64,000 bases of DNA, from contig NZ_RCFQ01000006.1 of NCBI RefSeq assembly GCF_003665155.1, positions 1-64,000 on the forward strand, in the 5' to 3' direction. This DNA is from Mariprofundus sp. EBB-1. Lineage in GTDB: Bacteria > Pseudomonadota > Zetaproteobacteria > Mariprofundales > Mariprofundaceae. This document shows, one piece after another, positions 5,313 through 54,227 of the stretch. The first letter of the stretch is position 1. Every line of letters begins with the position of its first letter. A program made the translations under genes and the position numbers. The notes beneath the pieces are model-generated. The model saw only the letters and a program-made list of their open reading frames with translations. It ran no database searches and was not told the origin of the DNA.

Positions 5313-5740
5313 TTAGATTTTTACCTTATCTCTTGTACGAAAGACACAATGATCCCTTAAATAGCCTCCTCTGAGCATATATAAATTAGTGCGTGTAATA
5401 AACATATGAACCTGCGAGATCTTCTTCTTTAGCCCGCGGTAGCGTATTTTCTTGAACCCAAATTGCTGTTTGATCACACGGAATACATGTTCAACCCGAG
5501 CCCTAATGGAAGATTGTTTTCGGTTTCGCTTTTTCTGACTCGCTGATAAATTCTTCTTGGGTTTACATTTGTCATTCACACAGTAACGCAAACAACCTTT
5601 TGCGCACCTCATTTGTAACTGTCACGGGTGTAACCTGCATCAACAAACACAACGACATCATCATGGCGTAGTAAATTGGGCAATTCATGTATATCTGCAA
5701 TATTAGCACGGACACTACAGACCCAACACTCACATGATGA
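5313..5740 (-). pseudogene. IS5-family transposase remnant (C-terminal half, frameshifted)
   Basis: On the minus strand, one frame (5740 to ~5626) reads RANIADIHELPNLL, then VVFVDAGYTR. This is the typical 'aNv.D...ll' and second-catalytic-Asp region of IS5-group DDE transposases, and it ends at a stop. The next part (5313-5612, another frame) reads [19 protein letters not shown] followed by KKIRYRGL, the E-containing C-terminal segment (catalytic Glu in RVEHVF). At least one, probably two, frameshifts separate the parts. The N-terminal half and the inverted repeats are not recognisable. This is a dead insertion sequence. Confidence 0.85.
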
Positions 5741-13569: not shown

Positions 13570-13656
13570 CACCTGGGAAAGGGGGCCAGGCTTTGGTTAT
13601 GGGGTTACATGAAAGGGGGCCAGATGAAAGGGGGCCAGGCTTTGGTTATGGGGTTA
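13570..13656. repeat. Left-flank repeats of the RAYT element
   Basis: The block aagggggccaggctttggtt followed by atggggtta occurs twice, at about 13575-13606 and 13625-13656, with an extra short copy of gaaagggggccag between. The second copy runs into the last codons of the transposase gene. The inverse form (ccaaagcctggcccct) lies at the other flank. Confidence 0.85.
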
Positions 13657-14581
13657 TGATGGTTCGGAGGCCTTCCACTTTATCTCGAACCGATGGGCAT
13701 TCACTCATTCTCACTTCTAGGTTATGAATTGCCCCGCTAAGCGTTGATACATCGCGGTGGAAATGTTTAGCGATATTGGTCAGTGATTCTTTTCCATATT
13801 CTTTCATCAGGTAAGCAACCACGCTCCTGGCTTCGGAGGGCAGGCGTTGGCTGCCAGCTCGGGATAAATCGTCTGACTGTAATTTATAAAAATCACACAC
13901 TTTTTCGATACAGTCATCTAAGGCTAGCGTTCTTTTCTCTTCGCCAATTTCTTTTAAAATTTGTTCAGCAAAATAATCATCACCGAGCACTCTGCTATCT
14001 TGCGCGCCTGAATGAAATTCATCTTTTCGTTTTTCATTTAAAGCACTTAAAACAAAATCTTCATATACGCATCGAGCATGGTTTAAATCCGAAGAAAAAC
14101 GGCTTAAGACTATATCGCATTCCAGCCAAGGTAATGTTTCGAGGCCCATATATGCACGATGGCTACTCCACAGGTAGTCAATCACCTTTTCAACCAGACC
14201 GATGCGAATAGGATTAAGGTGAGTATATCTAACCAGTTCAAGCAAATAGCTGTCTTCATCTACCAGAATTGCTTTGAAGCGCCCCTGAAACAAGTGTCCC
14301 ATCCGTTTTTGTCGGCTATTAAACCAACGCGTGTAACGAAATGATAAATTTTGCATTATCTTTGATAAGTCGGTCGTACCTACTTGAATGACCAGATGAA
14401 CATGGTTATTCATAAGGCAAAAGGCATGAACCTTATGTCCATACCTGTGCAGGCCCTCCTGAAGTAATAAAAGAAAGTGAGTGCGCTCAATATCATCATG
14501 AAAAATATTCATGCCGCCATTGCCTCTTAGCATGACATGGTAAAAGGCACCGGGGATGTGGATTCTAGGTTTGCGAGCCAT
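13646..14581 (-). CDS. REP-associated tyrosine transposase (RAYT)
   Basis: A 311-residue Y1/HUH-type transposase (TnpA_REP). The N-terminal domain has MARKPRIHIPGAFYHVMLRGNGG, the HUH pair in CLMNNHVHLVIQ, the catalytic-Tyr region LSFRYTRWFN, and 'YTHLNPIRIGLV'. The C-terminal ~90 residues ('RSVVAYLMKEYGKESLTNIAKHFHRDVSTLSGAIHNLE') are a DnaA-C-like helix-turn-helix found in the longer members of the family. RAYTs are domesticated enzymes thought to spread REP sequences. The gene is intact and framed by repeats of the kind it would act on. Confidence 0.93.
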   Translation of the reverse strand: MARKPRIHIPGAFYHVMLRGNGGMNIFHDDIERTHFLLLLQEGLHRYGHKVHAFCLMNNHVHLVIQVGTTDLSKIMQNLSFRYTRWFNSRQKRMGHLFQGRFKAILVDEDSYLLELVRYTHLNPIRIGLVEKVIDYLWSSHRAYMGLETLPWLECDIVLSRFSSDLNHARCVYEDFVLSALNEKRKDEFHSGAQDSRVLGDDYFAEQILKEIGEEKRTLALDDCIEKVCDFYKLQSDDLSRAGSQRLPSEARSVVAYLMKEYGKESLTNIAKHFHRDVSTLSGAIHNLEVRMSECPSVRDKVEGLRTIITP

Positions 14582-43489: not shown

Positions 43490-44590
43490 ATGGATATCGA
43501 GATCAAGGTTCCCAGTTTGGGTGAGTCCGAATCAGAGGCAACACTTATTTCCTGGCTCAAAAAGGAGGGGGATGCCGTTGTCGTTGATGATGTGCTGGCT
43601 GAAATTGAGAGTGATAAAATCACCATGGAAATCACCGCGCTCGATGCAGGCATCCTCAAAAGTATCTCCAAACAGGTTGATGACACTGTTGAACCGGGTG
43701 AAGTCATCGGACTGATTGATGGCAGTGAACAGGCGGTAAAAGCAGCTTCAACGAGCACTGCTGCAGATACCACGCCCACTGATGAAGCGGTCTCAGAAGT
43801 AGAAGTGAAAGAAACCACAGCCGAGGCACCCGCTACAGATGCACCTGCACCAGTGACTAAAACAGTGACAACAGCTCCCCTCAGCAATCAGCGCAGTGAA
43901 GAACGTGTGCCAATGAGCCGCCTGCGCAAACGCATTGCTGAACGCTTAAAAAGCGCCCAGAACACGGCCGCTATGCTCACCACCTTCAATGAAGTGAATC
44001 TGCAACCCGTCATGGATCTACGCAGCCGTTATGGTCAGGCGTTCCAGAACAAACACGGTGTAAAACTAGGCTTTATGTCTTTCTTTGTACGCGCTGTTTC
44101 TCAAGCCATCTCACAACACCCTGCCCTCAATGCCTATATCGAAGCGGATAATATTGTTTATCATAATTACCTTGATGTCGGCATTGCCGTGAGTACGGAA
44201 AAAGGTTTAGTGGTACCCACATTAAGAGATGCGCATCTGATGAATCTGGCACAAATTGAGCAGGGCATTAGCGACCTGGCAGGCAAAGCCCGTGATGGTG
44301 GCCTGCTGCCCGATGATCTGAAAGGTGGCACTTTCTCCATCACCAATGGCGGTGTGTTCGGTTCCATGCTCTCCACACCGATTTTGAATCCGCCACAGAG
44401 CGGCATTCTCGGCATGCACACCATTCAAAAACGTGCGGTTGTGGAAAATGATACGATTGTCATTCGCCCCATGATGTATCTGGCTCTGTCATATGATCAT
44501 CGTCTCATTGACGGCTCCGATGCAGTGCGTTTTCTGGTGGCTGTAAAAGAAGCACTGGAGTATCCGGGAAGTCTGACACTCGATCTGTAA
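43490..44590 (+). CDS. sucB: 2-oxoglutarate dehydrogenase E2 (dihydrolipoyl succinyltransferase)
   Basis: 366 residues. One lipoyl domain (1-77) with the modified Lys in '[11 protein letters not shown]'; a Thr/Ala/Glu/Pro-rich linker (~83-135); then the catalytic domain from '[30 protein letters not shown]' to the active-site block '[16 protein letters not shown]'. It is about 40 residues shorter than typical SucB because the ~35-residue E3-binding (PSBD) domain between linker and core is not visible. AAGGAG precedes the start. The E3-binding mode is therefore an open question; see findings. Confidence 0.95.
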
Positions 44591-44649
44591 CCACACGACC
44601 AACAGGACACGCTTTTGGCTCTGTAATACAGCGCTAAAAGCGTGCTGGT

Positions 44650-44897
44650 CTACAAACGGCCATCGGCATCGTCACAGTAGGCAGTGGTACCCTGCTCGCC
44701 TAGACCGGAGTAGTCGGACAAGAAACCATGCTTTCCGAAGATACCGTGCTGAAAGTACGCACTGCCTATCTGTTTATTCCGGTAATCTTTTTAAGCCTGG
44801 CCGTACTATCGATGTGGCGCTACCCCGCGAACGCGTAACAGAGATTCAATTTCAACTGCGTGCGCCGCAGCAACAACAAAACGATCAACCGCACTGA
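44650..44897 (+). pseudogene. C-terminal remnant of a GPH/MFS-type transporter
   Basis: One frame from 44650 gives LQTAIGIVTVGSGTLLA, then a stop, then TGVVGQETMLSEDT and the hydrophobic helix 'RTAYLFIPVIFLSLAVLSMW' with RYP. A +1 frame goes on with RERVTEIQFQLRAPQ to a stop at 44895-44897. This is the end of a transporter such as the Na+/sugar GPH family ('R.ay..ip.i....a...l..YPl..er..ei..el'). It has a nonsense codon and a frameshift and lacks the first ~350 residues. A relic. Confidence 0.65.
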
Positions 44898-45017: not shown

Positions 45018-46202
45018 ATGGGCCATCATAAAACATTAAATCCCAGCCTGATGGAGCCGCTGATGCCGGAGGACAGGCAGCACCGGCTTGAAAATCTCGC
45101 ATTTGATCTGGCTGGTAAATCGCAGGGGCTGGCATCAACCCTGAATGGAGAGGTCATTCGCTCTGTTGGTGATCTGGTACGTTCGATGAACTGCTATTAC
45201 AGTAATCTGATTGAAGGGCACAACACCCACCCTACCAATATCGAGAAGGCGCTCAGAGATGATTATTCTGATGACCCCGAAATTCGTGATCTTCAGCTGG
45301 AAGCCCGTGCTCATATCGAGGTGCAGCGCCTGATTGATGAAGGCAAAGCACCTCCGCATGCACTCACAGGGGCATTTGCACTATGGGCACATAAAGAATT
45401 CTGTAAGCGCCTTCCCAATGCATTGCTATCTGTCACCAACCCCGAAACAGGCGAGAATGTAAATGTGATCCCCGGTCAACTCAGGAGTGGTGATGTACAG
45501 GTTGGCCGCCATGTTGCCGTTTCGGTTGATGAGCTAAACCTGTTCATGGGCCGATTTGAGGAGGCCTATGGCTCCGTGCCATCTCGCGCACGACAGGTGA
45601 TTGCTGTGGCTGCAGCACACCATCGCATGCTCTGGATTCACCCTTTTTATGACGGCAATGGCCGAGTCGTTCGACTGCAGTCTTACGCCTGTTTCCGGGA
45701 GCTTGGGATCGGCAGCGCGCTCTGGTCGGTGGCACGAGGTTTAGGGCGCAATGTGCAAGAATACAAACTGCGCCTTCAAGCTGCTGATATGCCAAGGCAA
45801 GGTGATCTGGATGGCAGGGGTAATCTGTCACTCAAAGGATTAGAAGAGTTCTGCGAATTCTTCCTCACGGTTTGCATTGATCAGGTTAACTATATGCAGT
45901 CGATTCTGGAACCGAATGAACTCCTGCGCAGGATTGGACTCTACTGCCGTGATGAGGTGGATGCCGGACGTTTAATGAAAGGCTCCTTCAACCTGTTGCG
46001 GGAAGCACTGCTTAGCGGCTCACTTGAGCGCGGCAGAGCACCTGAGATTACCGGTTATGCCGACAGACAGGCACGCAAAGTACTCAAAGGCTTGCTGGAC
46101 AGGAGGCTTCTCGTATCCGATTCGCCCAAGGGCGCAGTGCGTCTCAGTTTTCCTGAGCATGTACTGGAATCATGGTTACCAAGGCTTTACCCAACAGCTT
46201 AA
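45018..46202 (+). CDS. Fic-family AMPylase-type protein
   Basis: 394 residues. N-terminal helix with the inhibitory motif in 'NCYYSNLIEGHNTHP' (S..IEG, the class II arrangement). Fic core with the active-site loop 'HPFYDGNGRVVRL' at residue ~207 (HPFxxGNGR). Following helices ('RELGIGSALWSVARGLGRN') and a C-terminal winged-helix-like region ('EITGYADRQARKVLKGLLDRRLLVSDSPKGAVRLSF'). Likely AMP transferase (or similar) on an unknown target, kept in check by its own N-terminal helix. No classical ribosome site. A decayed copy of its last ~200 bases is found at 50557-50758. Confidence 0.93.
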   Translation: MGHHKTLNPSLMEPLMPEDRQHRLENLAFDLAGKSQGLASTLNGEVIRSVGDLVRSMNCYYSNLIEGHNTHPTNIEKALRDDYSDDPEIRDLQLEARAHIEVQRLIDEGKAPPHALTGAFALWAHKEFCKRLPNALLSVTNPETGENVNVIPGQLRSGDVQVGRHVAVSVDELNLFMGRFEEAYGSVPSRARQVIAVAAAHHRMLWIHPFYDGNGRVVRLQSYACFRELGIGSALWSVARGLGRNVQEYKLRLQAADMPRQGDLDGRGNLSLKGLEEFCEFFLTVCIDQVNYMQSILEPNELLRRIGLYCRDEVDAGRLMKGSFNLLREALLSGSLERGRAPEITGYADRQARKVLKGLLDRRLLVSDSPKGAVRLSFPEHVLESWLPRLYPTA

Positions 46203-46315
46203 CAATGCACATTTTCCATATTGCTAATGAGTGTTAAGCGTATTTAGTAATACTGTCACCGAAACCCTCTTTGCTACGAAAGGTAAACCTCTTCCTTTCA
46301 CTCCAATAGCACCCT

Positions 46316-46966
46316 TCAGACAGTGATCAATCCGTGCCGGATAGCCAGCTTGGTCAGCTCGATGTGATTACTGACCCCCATCTTTTTCATAATATTGGCA
46401 TGGTGGTTGGCAACCGTGTGTGCGCTGATAAACAGGTTTTCGCCAATTTGTCGCTGGTTTAAGCCATCCAGCATCATGCGAATAATCTCAAACTCCCTAA
46501 GCGTGAGGGTTGAAAATGGGCTGAATGAACTGTTTGATTCCTGTAATGCAATAGATTGGGCGATATTGGTGTCAATATAGGTGCCCCCTGCTGCGATCAC
46601 CCGAATGGCGCGAAATAAAATCATGGGCGGCGTATGGCCGCAGATAACGCCATTTACCCTCAGATCTAGCAGGCGCCTGGCAATATGAACGTCCTCTATC
46701 ATGCAGAGGACGAGGATTTTTATATCCGCGTTGCGGTGCTTGATTTGACTGATGCATTCCAGCCCGCATTTCAAGCCGGAATTCATCACCATTAACAAAA
46801 TATCGGGGGCTGAATTCGTACATGCTATGCAACATCCCGACTCGCAAGTGACAGGCTTCAGCAGTTTGAAATCATATTCCTTTTCCAGTAAGCAGCGAAA
46901 GCCCGCCTCGCTGATGGGCACTTCTTCAATCAACCGGATTCGAATGGCGCTGTCTAATGTTCCCAC
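46316..46966 (-). CDS. LuxR/NarL-type regulator with degenerate receiver
   Basis: About 216 residues from GTG 46966, with AGGGGA six bases upstream. The N-terminal domain has the NarL-receiver outline (IRIRLIEEVPISEAGFRCLL), but the phospho-acceptor region reads DILLMVMNSG where an Asp is expected (LLMD), so it is probably not phosphorylated. A C-C pair lies in 'CESGCCIACTNSAPD'. The C-terminal HTH is complete: 'STLTLREFEIIRMMLDGLNQRQIGENLFISAHTVANHHANIMKKMGVSNHIELTKLAI'. Divergent from the Kelch gene, so it likely controls it. What it senses is not visible; the cysteines are a candidate. Confidence 0.88.
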   Translation of the reverse strand: MGTLDSAIRIRLIEEVPISEAGFRCLLEKEYDFKLLKPVTCESGCCIACTNSAPDILLMVMNSGLKCGLECISQIKHRNADIKILVLCMIEDVHIARRLLDLRVNGVICGHTPPMILFRAIRVIAAGGTYIDTNIAQSIALQESNSSFSPFSTLTLREFEIIRMMLDGLNQRQIGENLFISAHTVANHHANIMKKMGVSNHIELTKLAIRHGLITV

Positions 46967-47025
46967 GGTTGTTCCCCTGCTAACAACATCAGTATAGCCG
47001 AAATACAGCAAGTTGCATTACATCG

Positions 47026-47060
47026 GGATAAAACCCCGGGTAAATACAGGATAAATCCCC
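47026..47060. promoter_or_regulatory. Paired GGATAAA(A/T)CCCC sites between regulator and Kelch gene
   Basis: GGATAAAACCCC (47026-47037) and GGATAAATCCCC (47049-47060) are direct repeats 23 bases apart, i.e. about two DNA turns, in the divergent promoter region. They are plausible binding sites of the LuxR-type regulator; a search of the rest of the window by eye showed no further copies. Confidence 0.45.
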
Positions 47061-47125
47061 ATATATTTTCTCCGCCCCATAAACTTTACTAGTACCGCAT
47101 AGATATTTTTTTGGAGGTATCAATC

Positions 47126-50100
47126 ATGACTTACTCAATCTGGCAAAAATTCATAGCAAAATGTACTGAGTCTGGTTTCTTAAGCCCTATACGAGTGGCA
47201 CTGGTATTACTAATCATGATCAGCATTGCCCCTATGGGGTTTGTTGCGACGGCTGCGGGTACATGGGCCACCAAAACTACCTACCCTGCTACCAATATAG
47301 TCATGGCCTCGGCTGAAGCTATCGGCGGTAAAATCTATGTGGTTGGCGGCAGTGATCCCGTGACTGGCTTAAGCACAAATTCCCTGGGGATTTACAACTC
47401 AGCCACCGATACATGGGCCTCTGGTTTACCGATGCCAAGCAAGCGTTTGCGTACAGTTACAGGTGTTATTGATGGTAAATTGTATGTGGCCGGAGGGCTC
47501 TCAAACAACATTACCTTTATGCAGAGAGACAGCCTTGAGATTTACGATCCTGCAACGGATATATGGACGACTGGTACCCCGATGCCTGCTGCACGGGATA
47601 CAGCCATGGGTGGAGTGATTGGAGGAAAGATGTATGTGGTTGGTGGAAGCTCCGGATGTTGTCCATCAACAGCTCATGCCGATCTCTTTGTATACGATCC
47701 TGCCACCAACACATGGGCGACCAAGGCTCCGATGGCGGCGGGCACTCGCTTTTCGGGAGGCGCTGGCGTTGTGAATGGCAAGCTCTATGTGGCTGGCGGA
47801 GAAACCTGGCCATCCAGTCCATCTGTGACTCGGTTGGAAGAGTATGATCCTGCTACAGACACATGGATCACCAAAGCACCCATGCCGGGGGTGAATCATT
47901 TATTCGCAACTGGTGTTATCAATAACAAGTTCTATGTTATCGGGGGGCGCTTCAATCCATTTAATGATGTTCAGCGCGACAGTGTTTGGGTTTATGATCC
48001 TGCATCGGATAGCTGGACCGTCGATCCAGCGACAATGCCCACAGCAAGAAGCGGCTCTGCTCCAACGGTGTTGCTTAATCAGCTACATATCATTGGTGGC
48101 TTCCTTACTCCACCAGCACCATCGACTAATGTGCATGAGGTATATATTCCGGCGGGAGTACCTGCTCCTTCCGCAGTAGTGACCGTGGACTTCGACAGCC
48201 TCGATACAACGGCGGGCAGGGTGTCCGGTGCAGCACTGGATAATTACCTGGCCGGTTTCGGTATCACCATCACCAGTCAGGTGGGAGCAACTTTGACGGT
48301 GGCGTCGGCAGATCCAGCCCTCCCAAACTTCGGGGGACAGAATGTTGTGGCCTCGTCATCGCCTAATGTGTTGGAGATGTTTCCTGGTAACACGAACGTT
48401 TCCTTCACACTGGAATTTTCCACCCCGATTGACAGCTTGAGCTTTACGAGGGCTGCTCGTTGTACCTCCCTGGCATACCCACCATGGGATGCGGTAGTGA
48501 AAAATTCACTTGGAGTGGTGATTGGTACCGCCTCTGAAAGTGGTGGTGGTACTGGTGCCTCATGCGCCAGTCCATTTCCACCAGCTCAAGTATTATCGTT
48601 CACCGGGCCGGGCATCAAATCGCTGACGATTGACAGCGGCAATTTCGGATTTTACGGTCGGCAGGGGCCTGCTCTGGATGATTTGGTTATGACACTGCAG
48701 GCAGGGAGCGGGAATCATCCTCCTGTTGCCAATGCCGGAGCTAATCAAACGGTACAATGTAGCGGCGCATCCAGTGCGGATGTTACGCTGAATGGATCTG
48801 CTTCTGATCTGGACCCAGCCGATACACTGACTTACAACTGGTCATGGGCCGGAGGTGGCTCTGCAACGGGCACCAACCCGACGGCTTCCTTCCCACGCGG
48901 TGCTACAACAGTGACATTGACTGTAAGTGACGGAAACGGTGGGTCGAATACAGCTACTACCGTTGTTACAGTGGAAGACACTACTGCGCCTGTCGTCAAT
49001 GCAGGTGCAGATGTTACGCTGAATGCCACAGGCCCGGGTGGTGCAGTATTTGATGTGCTGACTCAGGCGACATCCAGTGATAATTGCTGCGGTGTTTCAC
49101 TGACAGTGGATCCAGTAGGATCTTACCCGATTGGCACTACGCCGGTTACAGTGACGGCTACGGATTGTGCCAGCAATCACAGCAGCGATCAGATGAATGT
49201 GATTGTGAATGAAGTAAATTCGATTCCGAACCTGCCGCTACCTTACGCTGGGACGGTGAGCATCACGACACCTCCGGGTCAGACGTTGTTTGCTAGCACT
49301 ACCGGTATCCCTTTTGGAGGCCCTGCCGGTATCAGCTTCCCGTTTGCTTCGGTTGCATACAGTGTGACGTCGCCAGTCGGTGGTAGTGTGACGGTGACAC
49401 TGACATTCAGCTCTGCACTGCCTACACCGTTCCTGCTCTTTAAAACAGGTGGTGTGCCGCCGTTTATGATGATTCCTAGCAGTCTCTGGACACAGACAAG
49501 CCCGAACTCCATCCAGATTACTCTGACTGATGGTGGGCCATATGATCTGGACGGGGTGGTTAACGGCGTGATTATTGATCCGGTAGCGATTGGTGTTGAC
49601 ACTGATCCACCGGTGTTTTCAACACCACCTATTGATATTACAGGGGTTGAAGCGACGTCTGTAGCTGGTGCTGTGGTTACGTTCAGCTTACCTGTTGCTG
49701 TCGATAATATTGACCCGAACCCAGTAGTCAGCTGTTTGCCGGCTTCCGGTAGCACTTTTGGTCTGGGTAGCTCAACAGTAACATGTACGGCGACGGATGC
49801 TTCGAATAACAGCAGTAGCAGCAGCTTTACTGTTACGGTGTTAGATACCACACCACCGGTTCTGACTGTGCCTGTTGATGTGAGTTATGGGTCCATGTGT
49901 CCTCTGACTCCGGTGGCGATCGGGCAGGCGACAGCGACGGATTTCTTTCCACCGGTGATTGTGACATCTGATGCGCCTTTGGCCTATGGTCAGGGTACAA
50001 CAACAGTGATCCACTGGACGGCAGAAGATGCTAATCATAATTCTTCTGTAGGGCAGCAGAATGTCACTGTTGTAAACGTTCCTGTACCTGTGCTGACAGC

Positions 50101-50506
50101 GAGTCTGGTGCCGTACAGTGCTGGTGATGAGGATGATCAGGAATATGGTCGTGACTCTGATGAGGGACGTTTCATCGTGCACTTCGCTGTGTCGAGTATG
50201 GTGAATGTGGATCATGTCACAGCCCAGCTGGTGATCGCTGGTTATGCAACACCAATCACTGTAACCGATGGTCAAATCATCGAATTTGAATACGAAGATG
50301 AGAAGACCGAGGTTGAAGTGGAAAATGGTGTGTATGAAATCGAGGCACCGGCCATGTTGATGCGTGTTACAGCAGTGGTAACTGAATCATGTGCCAGTGA
50401 TGTCGTAGCTGAGGCTCAGCCCCAGGGGCTGACGCGCGATAATGATGATGACTATTATGGAAGCCATGGTAAGAAACAGGGTAAACATACGAGACATGAT
50501 GACTGA
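47126..50506 (+). CDS. Large secreted Kelch-PKD-HYR repeat protein
   Basis: 1126 residues from ATG 47126 (GGAGG 8 bases before). N-terminal signal/anchor helix (VALVLLIMISIAPMGFVA). Residues ~40-345: six Kelch repeats (GKIYVVGG/GKLYVAGG motifs with 'YDPATD.W') forming a beta-propeller. ~350-525: a domain beginning VTVDFDSLDTTAG, seen in exported PEP-CTERM-like proteins. ~530-620: PKD-like (NHPPVANAGANQTVQ). ~622-700: HYR (DTTAPVVNAGADVTL). Two further HYR-like units at ~820-985. C-terminal ~140 residues end acidic then basic (GKKQGKHTRHDD). No sortase or PEP-CTERM anchor seen. Probably an extracellular or surface adhesion or matrix protein. Confidence 0.85.
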   Translation: MTYSIWQKFIAKCTESGFLSPIRVALVLLIMISIAPMGFVATAAGTWATKTTYPATNIVMASAEAIGGKIYVVGGSDPVTGLSTNSLGIYNSATDTWASGLPMPSKRLRTVTGVIDGKLYVAGGLSNNITFMQRDSLEIYDPATDIWTTGTPMPAARDTAMGGVIGGKMYVVGGSSGCCPSTAHADLFVYDPATNTWATKAPMAAGTRFSGGAGVVNGKLYVAGGETWPSSPSVTRLEEYDPATDTWITKAPMPGVNHLFATGVINNKFYVIGGRFNPFNDVQRDSVWVYDPASDSWTVDPATMPTARSGSAPTVLLNQLHIIGGFLTPPAPSTNVHEVYIPAGVPAPSAVVTVDFDSLDTTAGRVSGAALDNYLAGFGITITSQVGATLTVASADPALPNFGGQNVVASSSPNVLEMFPGNTNVSFTLEFSTPIDSLSFTRAARCTSLAYPPWDAVVKNSLGVVIGTASESGGGTGASCASPFPPAQVLSFTGPGIKSLTIDSGNFGFYGRQGPALDDLVMTLQAGSGNHPPVANAGANQTVQCSGASSADVTLNGSASDLDPADTLTYNWSWAGGGSATGTNPTASFPRGATTVTLTVSDGNGGSNTATTVVTVEDTTAPVVNAGADVTLNATGPGGAVFDVLTQATSSDNCCGVSLTVDPVGSYPIGTTPVTVTATDCASNHSSDQMNVIVNEVNSIPNLPLPYAGTVSITTPPGQTLFASTTGIPFGGPAGISFPFASVAYSVTSPVGGSVTVTLTFSSALPTPFLLFKTGGVPPFMMIPSSLWTQTSPNSIQITLTDGGPYDLDGVVNGVIIDPVAIGVDTDPPVFSTPPIDITGVEATSVAGAVVTFSLPVAVDNIDPNPVVSCLPASGSTFGLGSSTVTCTATDASNNSSSSSFTVTVLDTTPPVLTVPVDVSYGSMCPLTPVAIGQATATDFFPPVIVTSDAPLAYGQGTTTVIHWTAEDANHNSSVGQQNVTVVNVPVPVLTASLVPYSAGDEDDQEYGRDSDEGRFIVHFAVSSMVNVDHVTAQLVIAGYATPITVTDGQIIEFEYEDEKTEVEVENGVYEIEAPAMLMRVTAVVTESCASDVVAEAQPQGLTRDNDDDYYGSHGKKQGKHTRHDD

Positions 50507-50518
50507 TTCATCATCATA

Positions 50519-50550
50519 ACAACAAGGCTCGCCAATGGCGGGCCTTGTTT
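50519..50550 (+). terminator. Terminator of the Kelch gene
   Basis: AACAAGGCtCGCC pairs with GGCGgGCCTTGTT across an AAT loop; a short T-rich tail follows. The decayed fic copy starts within ten bases of its end. Confidence 0.8.
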
Positions 50551-50556
50551 ATTGCT

Positions 50557-50758
50557 GGAAGCACTGCTTAGCGGCTCCGTTAAGCGCGACAGAGCACCAA
50601 AAATGAACACCGGTTATGCCGACAGACAGGCACGTAAGACATTCAAAGCTTGCTGAATCGAGGCCTTTTCGTATGCGATTCGCTCAAAGGTTCAGTGCAT
50701 ATCGACTTCTCGACATATCCTGGAATTATGGCCGCAAGGCTTTACCCAACACCTTAAT
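50557..50758 (+). pseudogene. Decayed copy of the fic 3' end
   Basis: From ggaagcactgcttagcggct to aaggctttacccaaca it follows the last ~200 bases of the fic gene (46001-46197) base by base with many substitutions and a few indels. Shared long runs include ttatgccgacagacaggcac. No open frame. About 85% similar in the best part by eye. The two copies flank the regulator-Kelch pair in the same orientation. Confidence 0.9.
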
Positions 50759-50797
50759 CATTCAGAGTTGTTAAACTCCATCCCCTGCACACGACAA

Positions 50798-51994
50798 TCA
50801 AAGTGATAATTGCTCAGCTACAAAATCAGCATCCTTATCCCCTCTTCCTGAAAGGTTCACAAGTATTGTCGCATCACTGGACATTGTTTTAGCAACTTTC
50901 ATGGCATGCGCCACAGCATGGGCGCTCTCAAGTGCAGGAATAATACCCTCCAAGCGGGAAAGCTGCATAAAGGCATCCAGGCACTCCTTGTCATCAACGG
51001 ATTCATATTTTACGCGTTTAATATCCTTTAGATAGCAGTGTTGCGGGCCAACGGCGGGATAATCCAGACCTGAAGCAATTGAGTAAACGGGTAACGGATT
51101 TCCTTCACTATCTTGAAGGTTATAGCACTCAAATCCATGAATAGCCCCTTTCACACCAAGCGTAAGCGTAGCAGCATGATCTTTGGTATCCAGCCCTTTT
51201 CCTGCAGGTTCAACCCCAATCATCTTGACTGACTCATCATCCAGAAAGGCTGTAAACAGACCGATCGCATTAGACCCGCCGCCCACACAGGCAATAAGCA
51301 GATCGGGAAGCTTCCCCTCCCTCAGCATAAACTGCTCTCTCGCCTCTTTGCCAACAATACTCTGGAAATCACGCACTATCTTTGGAAACGGGTGTGGCCC
51401 TACCACCGAACCAATTGCATAAAAGTAGTTCACAGGATCCTTCATATATTCTTCAAAGGCACTATCAACGGCATCTTTCAATGTTCTGGTACCGCGAGAT
51501 ACAGGAACAAGTTTGCAACCCAGAATTTTCATTTTGGTGACATTCGGGTGCTCTTTTGCTATATCAATCTCACCCATATGAATCTCACATTCAATACCAA
51601 CTAGCGCGCAAGCTGTTGCCAGCGCCACCCCATGCTGGCCGGCTCCTGTTTCTGCCAGCACCTTGGTTTTACCCATATGCTTGGCTAACAGTGCCTCCCC
51701 AATACAGTGATTAATCTTATGGGCTCCCGTATGGTTCAAGTCTTCGCGTTTAAGAAAAATACGTGCGCCGCCAATACTCTCACTCAATCGTTTGGCATAA
51801 TAAATCGGGCTGGGGCGACCAACGTAATCCGCAAACAACTGTTTCTGCTCTTGCTGAAATGCATCCGTTTTGGTGACCGCCTCATAAGAGTCATTAATTT
51901 CATTCATAATAGCAATCATTTGCGGTGGAAGAATCTGCCCTCCATACTCGCCAAAATAACCCTTTGCATCAGGCATTTCTATAGTTTTATCACC
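50798..51994 (-). CDS. trpB: Tryptophan synthase beta chain, solo
   Basis: 398 residues from ATG 51994, which has GGAGGAG upstream. PLP enzyme: PLP-Lys in '[15 protein letters not shown]', '[20 protein letters not shown]', '[12 protein letters not shown]' phosphate site, and the C-terminal '[11 protein letters not shown]'. Unlike typical TrpB, the loop after the first domain reads '[20 protein letters not shown]', where 'DIERQ.LNVFRM' is usual. No trpA or trpF neighbours. It could be a second, divergent TrpB or the only copy; the function as indole-plus-serine synthase is inferred from family. Confidence 0.9.
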
Positions 51995-52151
51995 CATTTC
52001 AATCTCCTCCAAACAGTACCCGGAACCCAGATTACCCATTTACTCTTCGACTTCCAATACATCATACTTCATTGCTATAGTTTAACCTCATACATTCACC
52101 TCTGAGGACTAGCCTCTTGCTTTGATGGGGGGGCTATCTATCGTTCCGGAC

Positions 52152-54227
52152 ATGAATGAAACCACGACAGCACTAACTTCCAATCCAATCCTGCAAGGGA
52201 TCACTACTAAACTGCCTCTTTTTGATCAGATCAAGCCAGAGCATGTATTGCCGGCGATTTATGCGGAGCTTACGCAGGCACGCAAGACTGTGGCTGAGCT
52301 TACGCAAATCGCTGATCCTGATTGGGATTCGCTGATGCTGCCGCTGGAAGTCATTGAGGAACGTCTCGGACGTGTCTGGGGGCCGGTTAGCCATTTCAAT
52401 GGGGTGTGTGATTCCGACGAACTGCGCCCGATCTATCAGCAAGGTGTGGCGAAGATGACCGAATGGTCAAGTGAACTGGGGCAGAATGAAGCACTGTATG
52501 CTGCCATTCGCAAGGTCTCTGAGCGTAATGATTTCCCATCTCTCTCCGAAGAACGGCAACAAGTCGTCAACCATGCCTTGCGGGATTTCAAACTCTCCGG
52601 TGCTGAGCTTGTGGGCGATGACAAAACCCGCTTCACTGAAATTCAGATGCGGCTTTCAGAGCTGGCAACCAGCTTCAGTGAACATGTGATGGATGCCACC
52701 CGCGCCTTTGAACTGCACCTGACAGATAAAAGCGATGTTGCGGGCCTGCCGGAGTCAGTGCGGGCCTCTGCCGCACAGCGCGCCACCCAGTCAGACAAGC
52801 TCAAAGAATCAGGTAACAACAACGGCTGGTTGATCACCCTTGATGCACCCTCCTACATTCCATTCATGCAATTTGCTGAGAATCGCAACTTACGCGAGAC
52901 AATGTATCGCGAATATGTCACACGGGCTTCAACCGGTGAGCTGGATAATGGCCCTGTCATCAATGAAATCCTCGCCCTGCGTAGCGAGGCTGCAGCGCTG
53001 CTTGGTTTTGAGCACTACGCCGCATCATCGTTAGCCAGCAAGATGGCAACCGATGTGGAAGAAGTGACAGGCTTTTTGCGTGAGCTGGCAGACAAAAGTA
53101 AATCGATTGCACAAAAAGAATTTGCCGAGCTACAACTTTTTGCAGATACCGAACTTGGCATTGATAAGCTACAGGCATGGGATATCTCTTTTGCATCGGA
53201 AAGACTGCGCCTGAAAACCTATGCTATCTCCCAAGAAGAGCTCAAACCCTACTTCCCTGAACAGAACGTCATCAACGGCATGTTCGGGCTGGTGGAGAAA
53301 CTCTACGGTATCACCATCCGTGAACGTGATGATGCTCCCGTTTGGCATGAGAGTGCCCGTTATTTTGAAGTCAGTGATGCCACTGGCACACAGATCTCTG
53401 CCTTCTATCTCGACCCCTATGCGCGGGCGCATAAACGCGGTGGTGCCTGGATGGATGAATGTATCGTGCGCTGGCAGCGCCCGGACGGCGTACTACAATT
53501 GCCGGTGGCATATCTGGTCTGCAACTTTGATGCCCCTGTAGGCAATAGGCCCGCCCTGTGGACACATGATGAGGTAACCACGCTGTTCCACGAATTTGGC
53601 CATGGTCTGCATCATATGCTTACGACTGTGTCCGAGCTTGGAGTATCCGGCATTCGTGGTGTGCCATGGGATGCCGTGGAGCTGCCAAGTCAGTTTATGG
53701 AGAACTTCTGCTGGGAACGTCAAGTAGTTGACCTTTTTGCCAAACATTATGAAACGGGTGAAACACTCCCGGATGCACTGTTTGACAAGATGCTCGCTGC
53801 CAAAAACTTCCAGTCGGCCATGATCATGCTGCGCCAGATCGAGTTTTCTCTATTTGATGTGCTGGTGCACTCTCAATTTGATGTGAATGGTGATGAAACT
53901 GTTCAGCAATTACTGGATAAGGTGCGTGAAGAAATATCCGTCTTTTCACCACCATCCTTCAACCGTTTTCAGAACAGCTTCTCGCATATCTTTGCAGGCG
54001 GTTATGCAGCAGGTTATTACTCTTACAAATGGGCCGAAGTATTATCGGCCGATATCTACGCCACCTTTGAAGAGGAGGGTGTCTTGAACGCTGATACAGC
54101 AGCTCGTTTGCGCAACGAACTGTTATCCATTGGTGGCAGTCGCGAGATCATGGATGCGTTTGTAGCATTCCGTGGTCGTAAACCGTCGGTAGATGCACTG
54201 CTGCGCCATTCCGGTCTGTCCGATTAG
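52152..54227 (+). CDS. prlC: Oligopeptidase A (M3 metallopeptidase)
   Basis: About 691 residues from ATG 52152; the ORF goes on upstream to TTG 52122. The M3 zinc motif HEFGH in 'TTLFHEFGHGLHHMLTTV' lies near residue 479, with the third ligand Glu in the segment 'VELPSQFMENFCWE'. The C-terminal 'FNRFQNSFSHIFAGGYAAGYYSYKWAEVLSADIYATFEEEG' holds the Tyr and His used in substrate binding. It degrades signal peptides and short peptides in the cytosol. Followed 66 bases later by a parvulin gene, probably co-transcribed. Confidence 0.95.
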   Translation: MNETTTALTSNPILQGITTKLPLFDQIKPEHVLPAIYAELTQARKTVAELTQIADPDWDSLMLPLEVIEERLGRVWGPVSHFNGVCDSDELRPIYQQGVAKMTEWSSELGQNEALYAAIRKVSERNDFPSLSEERQQVVNHALRDFKLSGAELVGDDKTRFTEIQMRLSELATSFSEHVMDATRAFELHLTDKSDVAGLPESVRASAAQRATQSDKLKESGNNNGWLITLDAPSYIPFMQFAENRNLRETMYREYVTRASTGELDNGPVINEILALRSEAAALLGFEHYAASSLASKMATDVEEVTGFLRELADKSKSIAQKEFAELQLFADTELGIDKLQAWDISFASERLRLKTYAISQEELKPYFPEQNVINGMFGLVEKLYGITIRERDDAPVWHESARYFEVSDATGTQISAFYLDPYARAHKRGGAWMDECIVRWQRPDGVLQLPVAYLVCNFDAPVGNRPALWTHDEVTTLFHEFGHGLHHMLTTVSELGVSGIRGVPWDAVELPSQFMENFCWERQVVDLFAKHYETGETLPDALFDKMLAAKNFQSAMIMLRQIEFSLFDVLVHSQFDVNGDETVQQLLDKVREEISVFSPPSFNRFQNSFSHIFAGGYAAGYYSYKWAEVLSADIYATFEEEGVLNADTAARLRNELLSIGGSREIMDAFVAFRGRKPSVDALLRHSGLSD

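Follow-up and report, generated by a model that had tools for sequence, protein, structure and literature searches.

Introduction

In Escherichia coli K-12, the e14 prophage resides in icd, and 163–165 bp of the end of that gene are duplicated as the icdC pseudogene (PMC11148124, PMC6379469). Homology-facilitated illegitimate recombination, defined in PMC3240628, is known as an experimental process and, going by that definition, should be able to duplicate part of the anchor gene without an element-coded enzyme. Here, we describe a repeated gene end in the first 64,000 nucleotides of contig NZ_RCFQ01000006.1 of Mariprofundus sp. EBB-1 (assembly GCF_003665155.1), a stretch referred to below as the window. 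The 3′ end of an intact fic gene recurs in decayed form (fic′) beyond a gene for a LuxR-type regulator and a Kelch/HYR gene (the LuxR–Kelch pair). The genome holding the window is designated G000, and those of its relatives G001, G006, G009, and so on. Our analyses indicated that the feature is a genuine recombination scar around an acquired pair of genes, an ordinary type of event that has left an unusually legible record. Judging from the sequence comparisons, we consider it reasonably probable that fic′ is the displaced, decaying fic 3′ end left by recombination at a repeatedly rebuilt locus.

Results

The fic 3′ End Is Present Twice

The last 207 bases of fic (45,996–46,202) are repeated at 50,552–50,757 in the same orientation, with about 80% identity. 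Local alignment of 45,996–46,214 with 50,552–50,769 gave 173 identities, 41 mismatches and 9 gap positions, and under stricter scoring the repeat reached 188, compared to at most 27 among 300 shuffles, which is not the level expected of unrelated DNA. Three ungapped direct-repeat blocks of 47, 40 and 35 nt (89, 88 and 83% identity) have kept their order and orientation. The first copy (45,996–46,214, forward strand) comprises fic codons 327 to the stop, with weak similarity for approximately 12 bp further, and the duplicated part of the Fic protein is its C-terminal 68 codons only. No third copy was found in a search of the whole 2.88-Mb genome, the repeat being present in these two places only. 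The same-orientation repeat proposed in an initial annotation of this DNA was therefore borne out, with coordinates that were off by 2–5 bases.

The second copy, fic′ (50,552–50,757, forward strand), was assigned as a decayed fic 3′ end based on direct-repeat, alignment, genome-search, codon-position and frame evidence. It is frameshifted and has stops in every frame along its length, reading LLEALLSGSVKRDRAPKMNTGYADRQARKTFKAC up to a stop in one frame and then going on in another. With its frame change and stops in all frames, fic′ is therefore not a gene, consistent with its initial description as degenerate and non-coding. It starts 2–3 nt past the terminator hairpin of the Kelch gene (50,521–50,549, forward strand; fold, z = −4.3), within the ten bases originally claimed. 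The LuxR and Kelch genes are the only genes between the two copies, as had been described, and no recombinase or integrase gene is present there.

A Close Relative Has the Same Surroundings Without the Pair

G006, from the same genus, has the neighboring genes, from a helicase gene to beyond the M3 peptidase gene, in identical order, mostly with 95–99% protein identity (about 98% at this locus). In G006, sucB is followed by what is left of an MFS-transporter gene, by the final 112 bp of fic and by trpB2, with neither LuxR nor Kelch, and the gap between sucB and trpB2 is only about 250 bp. Window positions 44,000–44,696 and 50,649–52,252 matched G006 with 97% and 95% identity, respectively, and the last 112 bp of fic did so with 90%. 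No close homolog of the LuxR protein was found elsewhere in the G006 genome (best 29%), nor was one of the Kelch protein, for which there was a partial 33% match to the repeat-rich C-terminal half only. Judged from G006, the fic end adjoining trpB2 is in its native position.

The fic end of G006 is joined in frame to the MFS remnant (AIGIVALGSGTLL-DRGLLVSD...). The fusion point is a short shared sequence, a microhomology (TACCTTGCTGG vs TACCCTGCTCG and GGCTTGCTGG), and the fusion looks like the pattern expected after a microhomology deletion. The pair-less site is known from G006 alone, a fragmented assembly that is 86% complete.

These comparisons supported the part of the initial annotation in which the pair was interposed at the fic 3′ end; the part in which it lay between tandem fic genes found no counterpart. 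A tandem origin, with LuxR–Kelch between two adjacent fic genes, the second of which was then stripped of its 5′ part by a deletion running inward from the Kelch terminator, appears doubtful. The remnant does begin directly past that terminator, and two other genes here (the MFS gene and, in G006, fic) have also been cut to their 3′ ends. However, among the 61 genomes searched there was no intact tandem pair of fic genes, around other content or otherwise, a full-length second copy was not found, and the codon-even differences described below indicate that the remnant was not a long-lived functional paralog.

Site Patterns Switch at a 16-bp Block

Both copies contain a 16-bp block, CAAGGCTTTACCCAAC, which is located at 46,180–46,195, just before the fic stop codon, and again at 50,735–50,750 (both forward strand). 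Upstream of the block G006 matched the intact fic (22 remnant-only vs 5 fic-only sites), and downstream it matched the remnant and its flank (0 remnant-only vs 5–6 fic-only sites). This switch had a Fisher p of 0.0004 at the chosen split and a scan-corrected permutation p of 0.007. The remnant has changes at a quarter of the upstream sites and zero changes of its own in the last 33 columns, and this contrast is firmer than the downstream fic-only counts. In addition, the C-terminal residues are ARLYPTP in G006 and the remnant and PRLYPTA in fic, and the flank TAATCATTCAGA is common to G006 and the remnant. The switch from a fic-like to a remnant-like pattern indicates that one crossover between the fic ends, within the block or next to it, separates the arrangement in G000 from that in G006. 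Integration in G000 and excision in G006 would leave an identical pattern.

The Remnant Is the Divergent Copy

The differences between fic and the remnant were distributed 16/10/16 over the codon positions, compared to 13/5/37 between fic and its ortholog in L033 (p 0.013). Based on this evenness, nearly all the change in fic′ arose while it was non-coding. At four-fold sites G000 and G006 were 10% different, or about 5% per lineage. The branch lengths were 0.29 for the remnant and 0.055 for both fic and G006, the remnant branch being about five times either of the others. The intact fic end and the rest of the genome are equally close to G006, and the remnant is the divergent copy. At the four-fold rate, 22 changed sites of 86 are too many for a copy made after the G000–G006 split, which would need to have evolved at about five times the pace of fic or G006. 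It is probable, though not proven, from these rates that duplication of the fic end preceded the split or that the end arrived already decayed with the pair.

A recent duplication confined to G000, in which insertion of the pair after the split copied the fic end exactly and the redundant copy then evolved very rapidly, would require the fewest events, with G006 being the ancestral site plus a 5′ deletion, and the tree test described below, which rejected no placement of the remnant, leaves room for it. We regard it as rather improbable, based on the 22 changes in 86 bp, with indels besides, where a neutral rate would predict close to 5% per lineage, and on the last 33 columns being free of remnant-only changes.

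The divergence of the remnant also bears on a site-specific island, in which a tyrosine-recombinase element integrated at the end of fic, rebuilt the gene from the copy that it carried and pushed the original end aside, as e14 did in icd, LuxR–Kelch being what was left after loss of the integrase. The geometry fits, as the end of the target gene is directly repeated at each border, in the same orientation, running to the gene end and about 200 bp long compared to 163–165 bp for icd/icdC. Against such an island, no integrase is present between the copies, and the foreign-looking copy is the remnant and not the intact fic end (the fic branch is no longer than that of G006). Over 86 comparable bases, G006 already suggests a pair-less fic end closer to the intact fic than to the remnant; G006 is without the pair, yet its target fic is truncated. 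The block common to the two copies does not recur across the genus as an att site, a near-exact 22-bp block pattern being absent beyond the two places in the window and G006. In addition, the cargo families look native, a search of viral contigs gave no match to fic, and plasmids gave only domain-level similarity to Kelch. We consider this explanation unlikely, and the classical integration unit that swaps a gene end, as raised in the initial annotation, was not supported, the intact fic end being close to G006 and the remnant divergent. The composition of the pair, tried as a sign of foreign origin, was uninformative (GC content of 0.48 and 0.52, compared to 0.46–0.52 around it).

A Short Dispersed Repeat Lies Beside fic

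A short dispersed repeat (GTTAAGCGTATTTAGTAATACTGTCACCGAAACCC; core TTTAGTAA-ACTGTCACCG) is present as a single copy at 46,233–46,267 (forward strand), 31 bp past fic. It resembles the ends around a Y1-type transposase gene (Y1_Tnp) in G001, where two inverted copies surround that gene. The core had no exact match in G006 or G009; elsewhere in the genus it had 11 exact matches in G019 and was multicopy also in G021. There is a hint here that the left part of the pair’s region derived from another lineage of the genus. Several copies of the repeat occur within 1.2 kb in G021 (L134:409–1596). The window also encodes a Y1 transposase joined to the C-terminal DNA-binding domain of DnaA (13,646–14,581; Pfam PF01797 and PF08299) and a fragment of a DDE transposase gene (5,313–5,612).

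A 4.55-kb unit consisting of the fic end, the transposon-end-like short repeat, LuxR and Kelch might be imagined to move between the fic loci of this family without a recombinase of its own, docking at the fic 3′ end and carrying a Y1-transposase-type repeat inside its left border. This is highly improbable. The window has no further copy of the short repeat that could form a right border, and in a family-wide search for the remnant and its flank the only long matches beyond the window were to G006 and to the ordinary fic of G016, an ortholog seated elsewhere, between purH and a hydrogenase-like cluster (L033).

The Locus Has Been Rebuilt Repeatedly

In G009, which is less close than G006 (sucA 88% identical), sucB is followed by genes for a GH130-like phosphorylase (326 amino acids), an intact GPH transporter (612 amino acids) and the M3 peptidase, which we interpret as the pre-island order. 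In the window, a 270-bp remnant of the transporter end directly follows sucB, as it does in G006 up to the deletion point. Based on the G009 order and this remnant, the ancestor that G000 and G006 share acquired fic and trpB2 between the transporter and peptidase genes, and the transporter was lost along with its neighbor gene. A gene has been cut back to its 3′ end three times here, namely the transporter gene, the fic of G006 and the spare copy in G000, and the interval from sucB to the M3 peptidase gene is a turnover spot in the genus.

The transporter remnant (44,626–44,894, forward strand) aligns with the end of the intact G009 gene at 75% DNA identity and has a TAG at about 44,700 and a frameshift near 44,818. 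It had protein matches in 10 other genomes of the genus and was called a GPH symporter by NCBIfam, under the cut-off. The intact fic (45,018–46,202, forward strand; Pfam Fic, 1.3e-10) encodes 394 amino acids. By motif scan the protein has SNLIEG at residue 62 and HPFYDGNGR at residue 208, the latter agreeing with the Fic domain motif HPFx[D/E]GN[G/K]R. With its inhibitory motif before the Fic core, we take it to be class II-like.

The regulator gene (46,316–47,011, reverse strand) encodes a LuxR/NarL-type protein of 231 amino acids (Pfam GerE, 1.3e-16; UvrY/SirA/GacA-like by NCBIfam, below the cut-off). The Kelch gene (47,126–50,506, forward strand) encodes a secreted-looking protein of 1126 amino acids with Kelch, PKD, choice-of-anchor U and HYR assignments from Pfam and NCBIfam, and a hydrophobic stretch is visible by eye at its N-terminus. 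In G010 (L069:1486–3497) the gene for a related LuxR regulator likewise diverges from one for a collagen-like surface protein, as the pair does at 46,316–50,506 in the window, and this arrangement of regulator and surface protein may represent a recurrent module. A Kelch relative in G014 was considered as a donor locus and rejected, as it lies beside ribosomal protein genes without fic.

The right neighbor, trpB2 (50,798–52,039, reverse strand), encodes a second tryptophan synthase beta chain and appears to have come to its present site along with fic. Another trpB-like gene is present in the genome (G000:C62:80709–81881). The interval had no Rfam match, and the closest tRNA gene is 8 kb away.

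Discussion

An older island, from fic to trpB2, is seated between the MFS-transporter and M3 peptidase genes in the background shared by G000 and G006, where the MFS gene was shortened to its 3′ end. In G000, the LuxR–Kelch pair is located between the intact fic and a decayed fic end that retains its native trpB2 flank, and we infer that the pair came in beside fic through recombination at the homologous gene end. The event could have been a Campbell-type single crossover of a molecule, such as a circle, bearing fic′ and the pair, or homology-facilitated illegitimate recombination with one side homologous and the other end-joined. Neither process needs an element-coded enzyme, and none is present. 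No donor locus for the pair was found. The pair would have entered before or near the G000–G006 split; G006 either never received it or lost it again by a crossover between the two fic ends, and separately may have lost the 5′ part of fic by the microhomology deletion. It is possible that a cassette carried a fic end along with the pair.

Several points weigh against this account. G006, with its own truncated fic, is the sole pair-less site, and a gain by G000 therefore looks no different from a loss by G006. Part of the downstream fic-only count comes from past the stop codon, where the DNA following the intact fic is different in any case. A four-taxon tree test rejected no placement of the remnant (approximately unbiased test, 0.67/0.33/0.33). 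In addition, divergence is unusually high in the 28 bp separating the block from trpB2 as well, and local rate variation could account for part of the long branch of the remnant.

The scar has no function of its own, and fic is intact. The locus is a small, clean example of how accessory genes enter beside a gene that remains unbroken while a readable scar is left behind, and a new kind of mobile element is not indicated.

Homology-facilitated illegitimate recombination has been followed in experiments, whereas at this locus the end product alone is seen. As in e14 and icd, an intact gene is accompanied by a 5′-truncated copy of its end, in the same orientation, beyond the inserted DNA. The e14 prophage carries an integrase and other phage genes and supplies the new end of its target gene; here, in contrast, there are two genes and no recombinase, and the divergent copy is the displaced one. 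The parallel with e14 is thus valid for the geometry and not for the mechanism, because the intact fic end is the copy closest to the relative.
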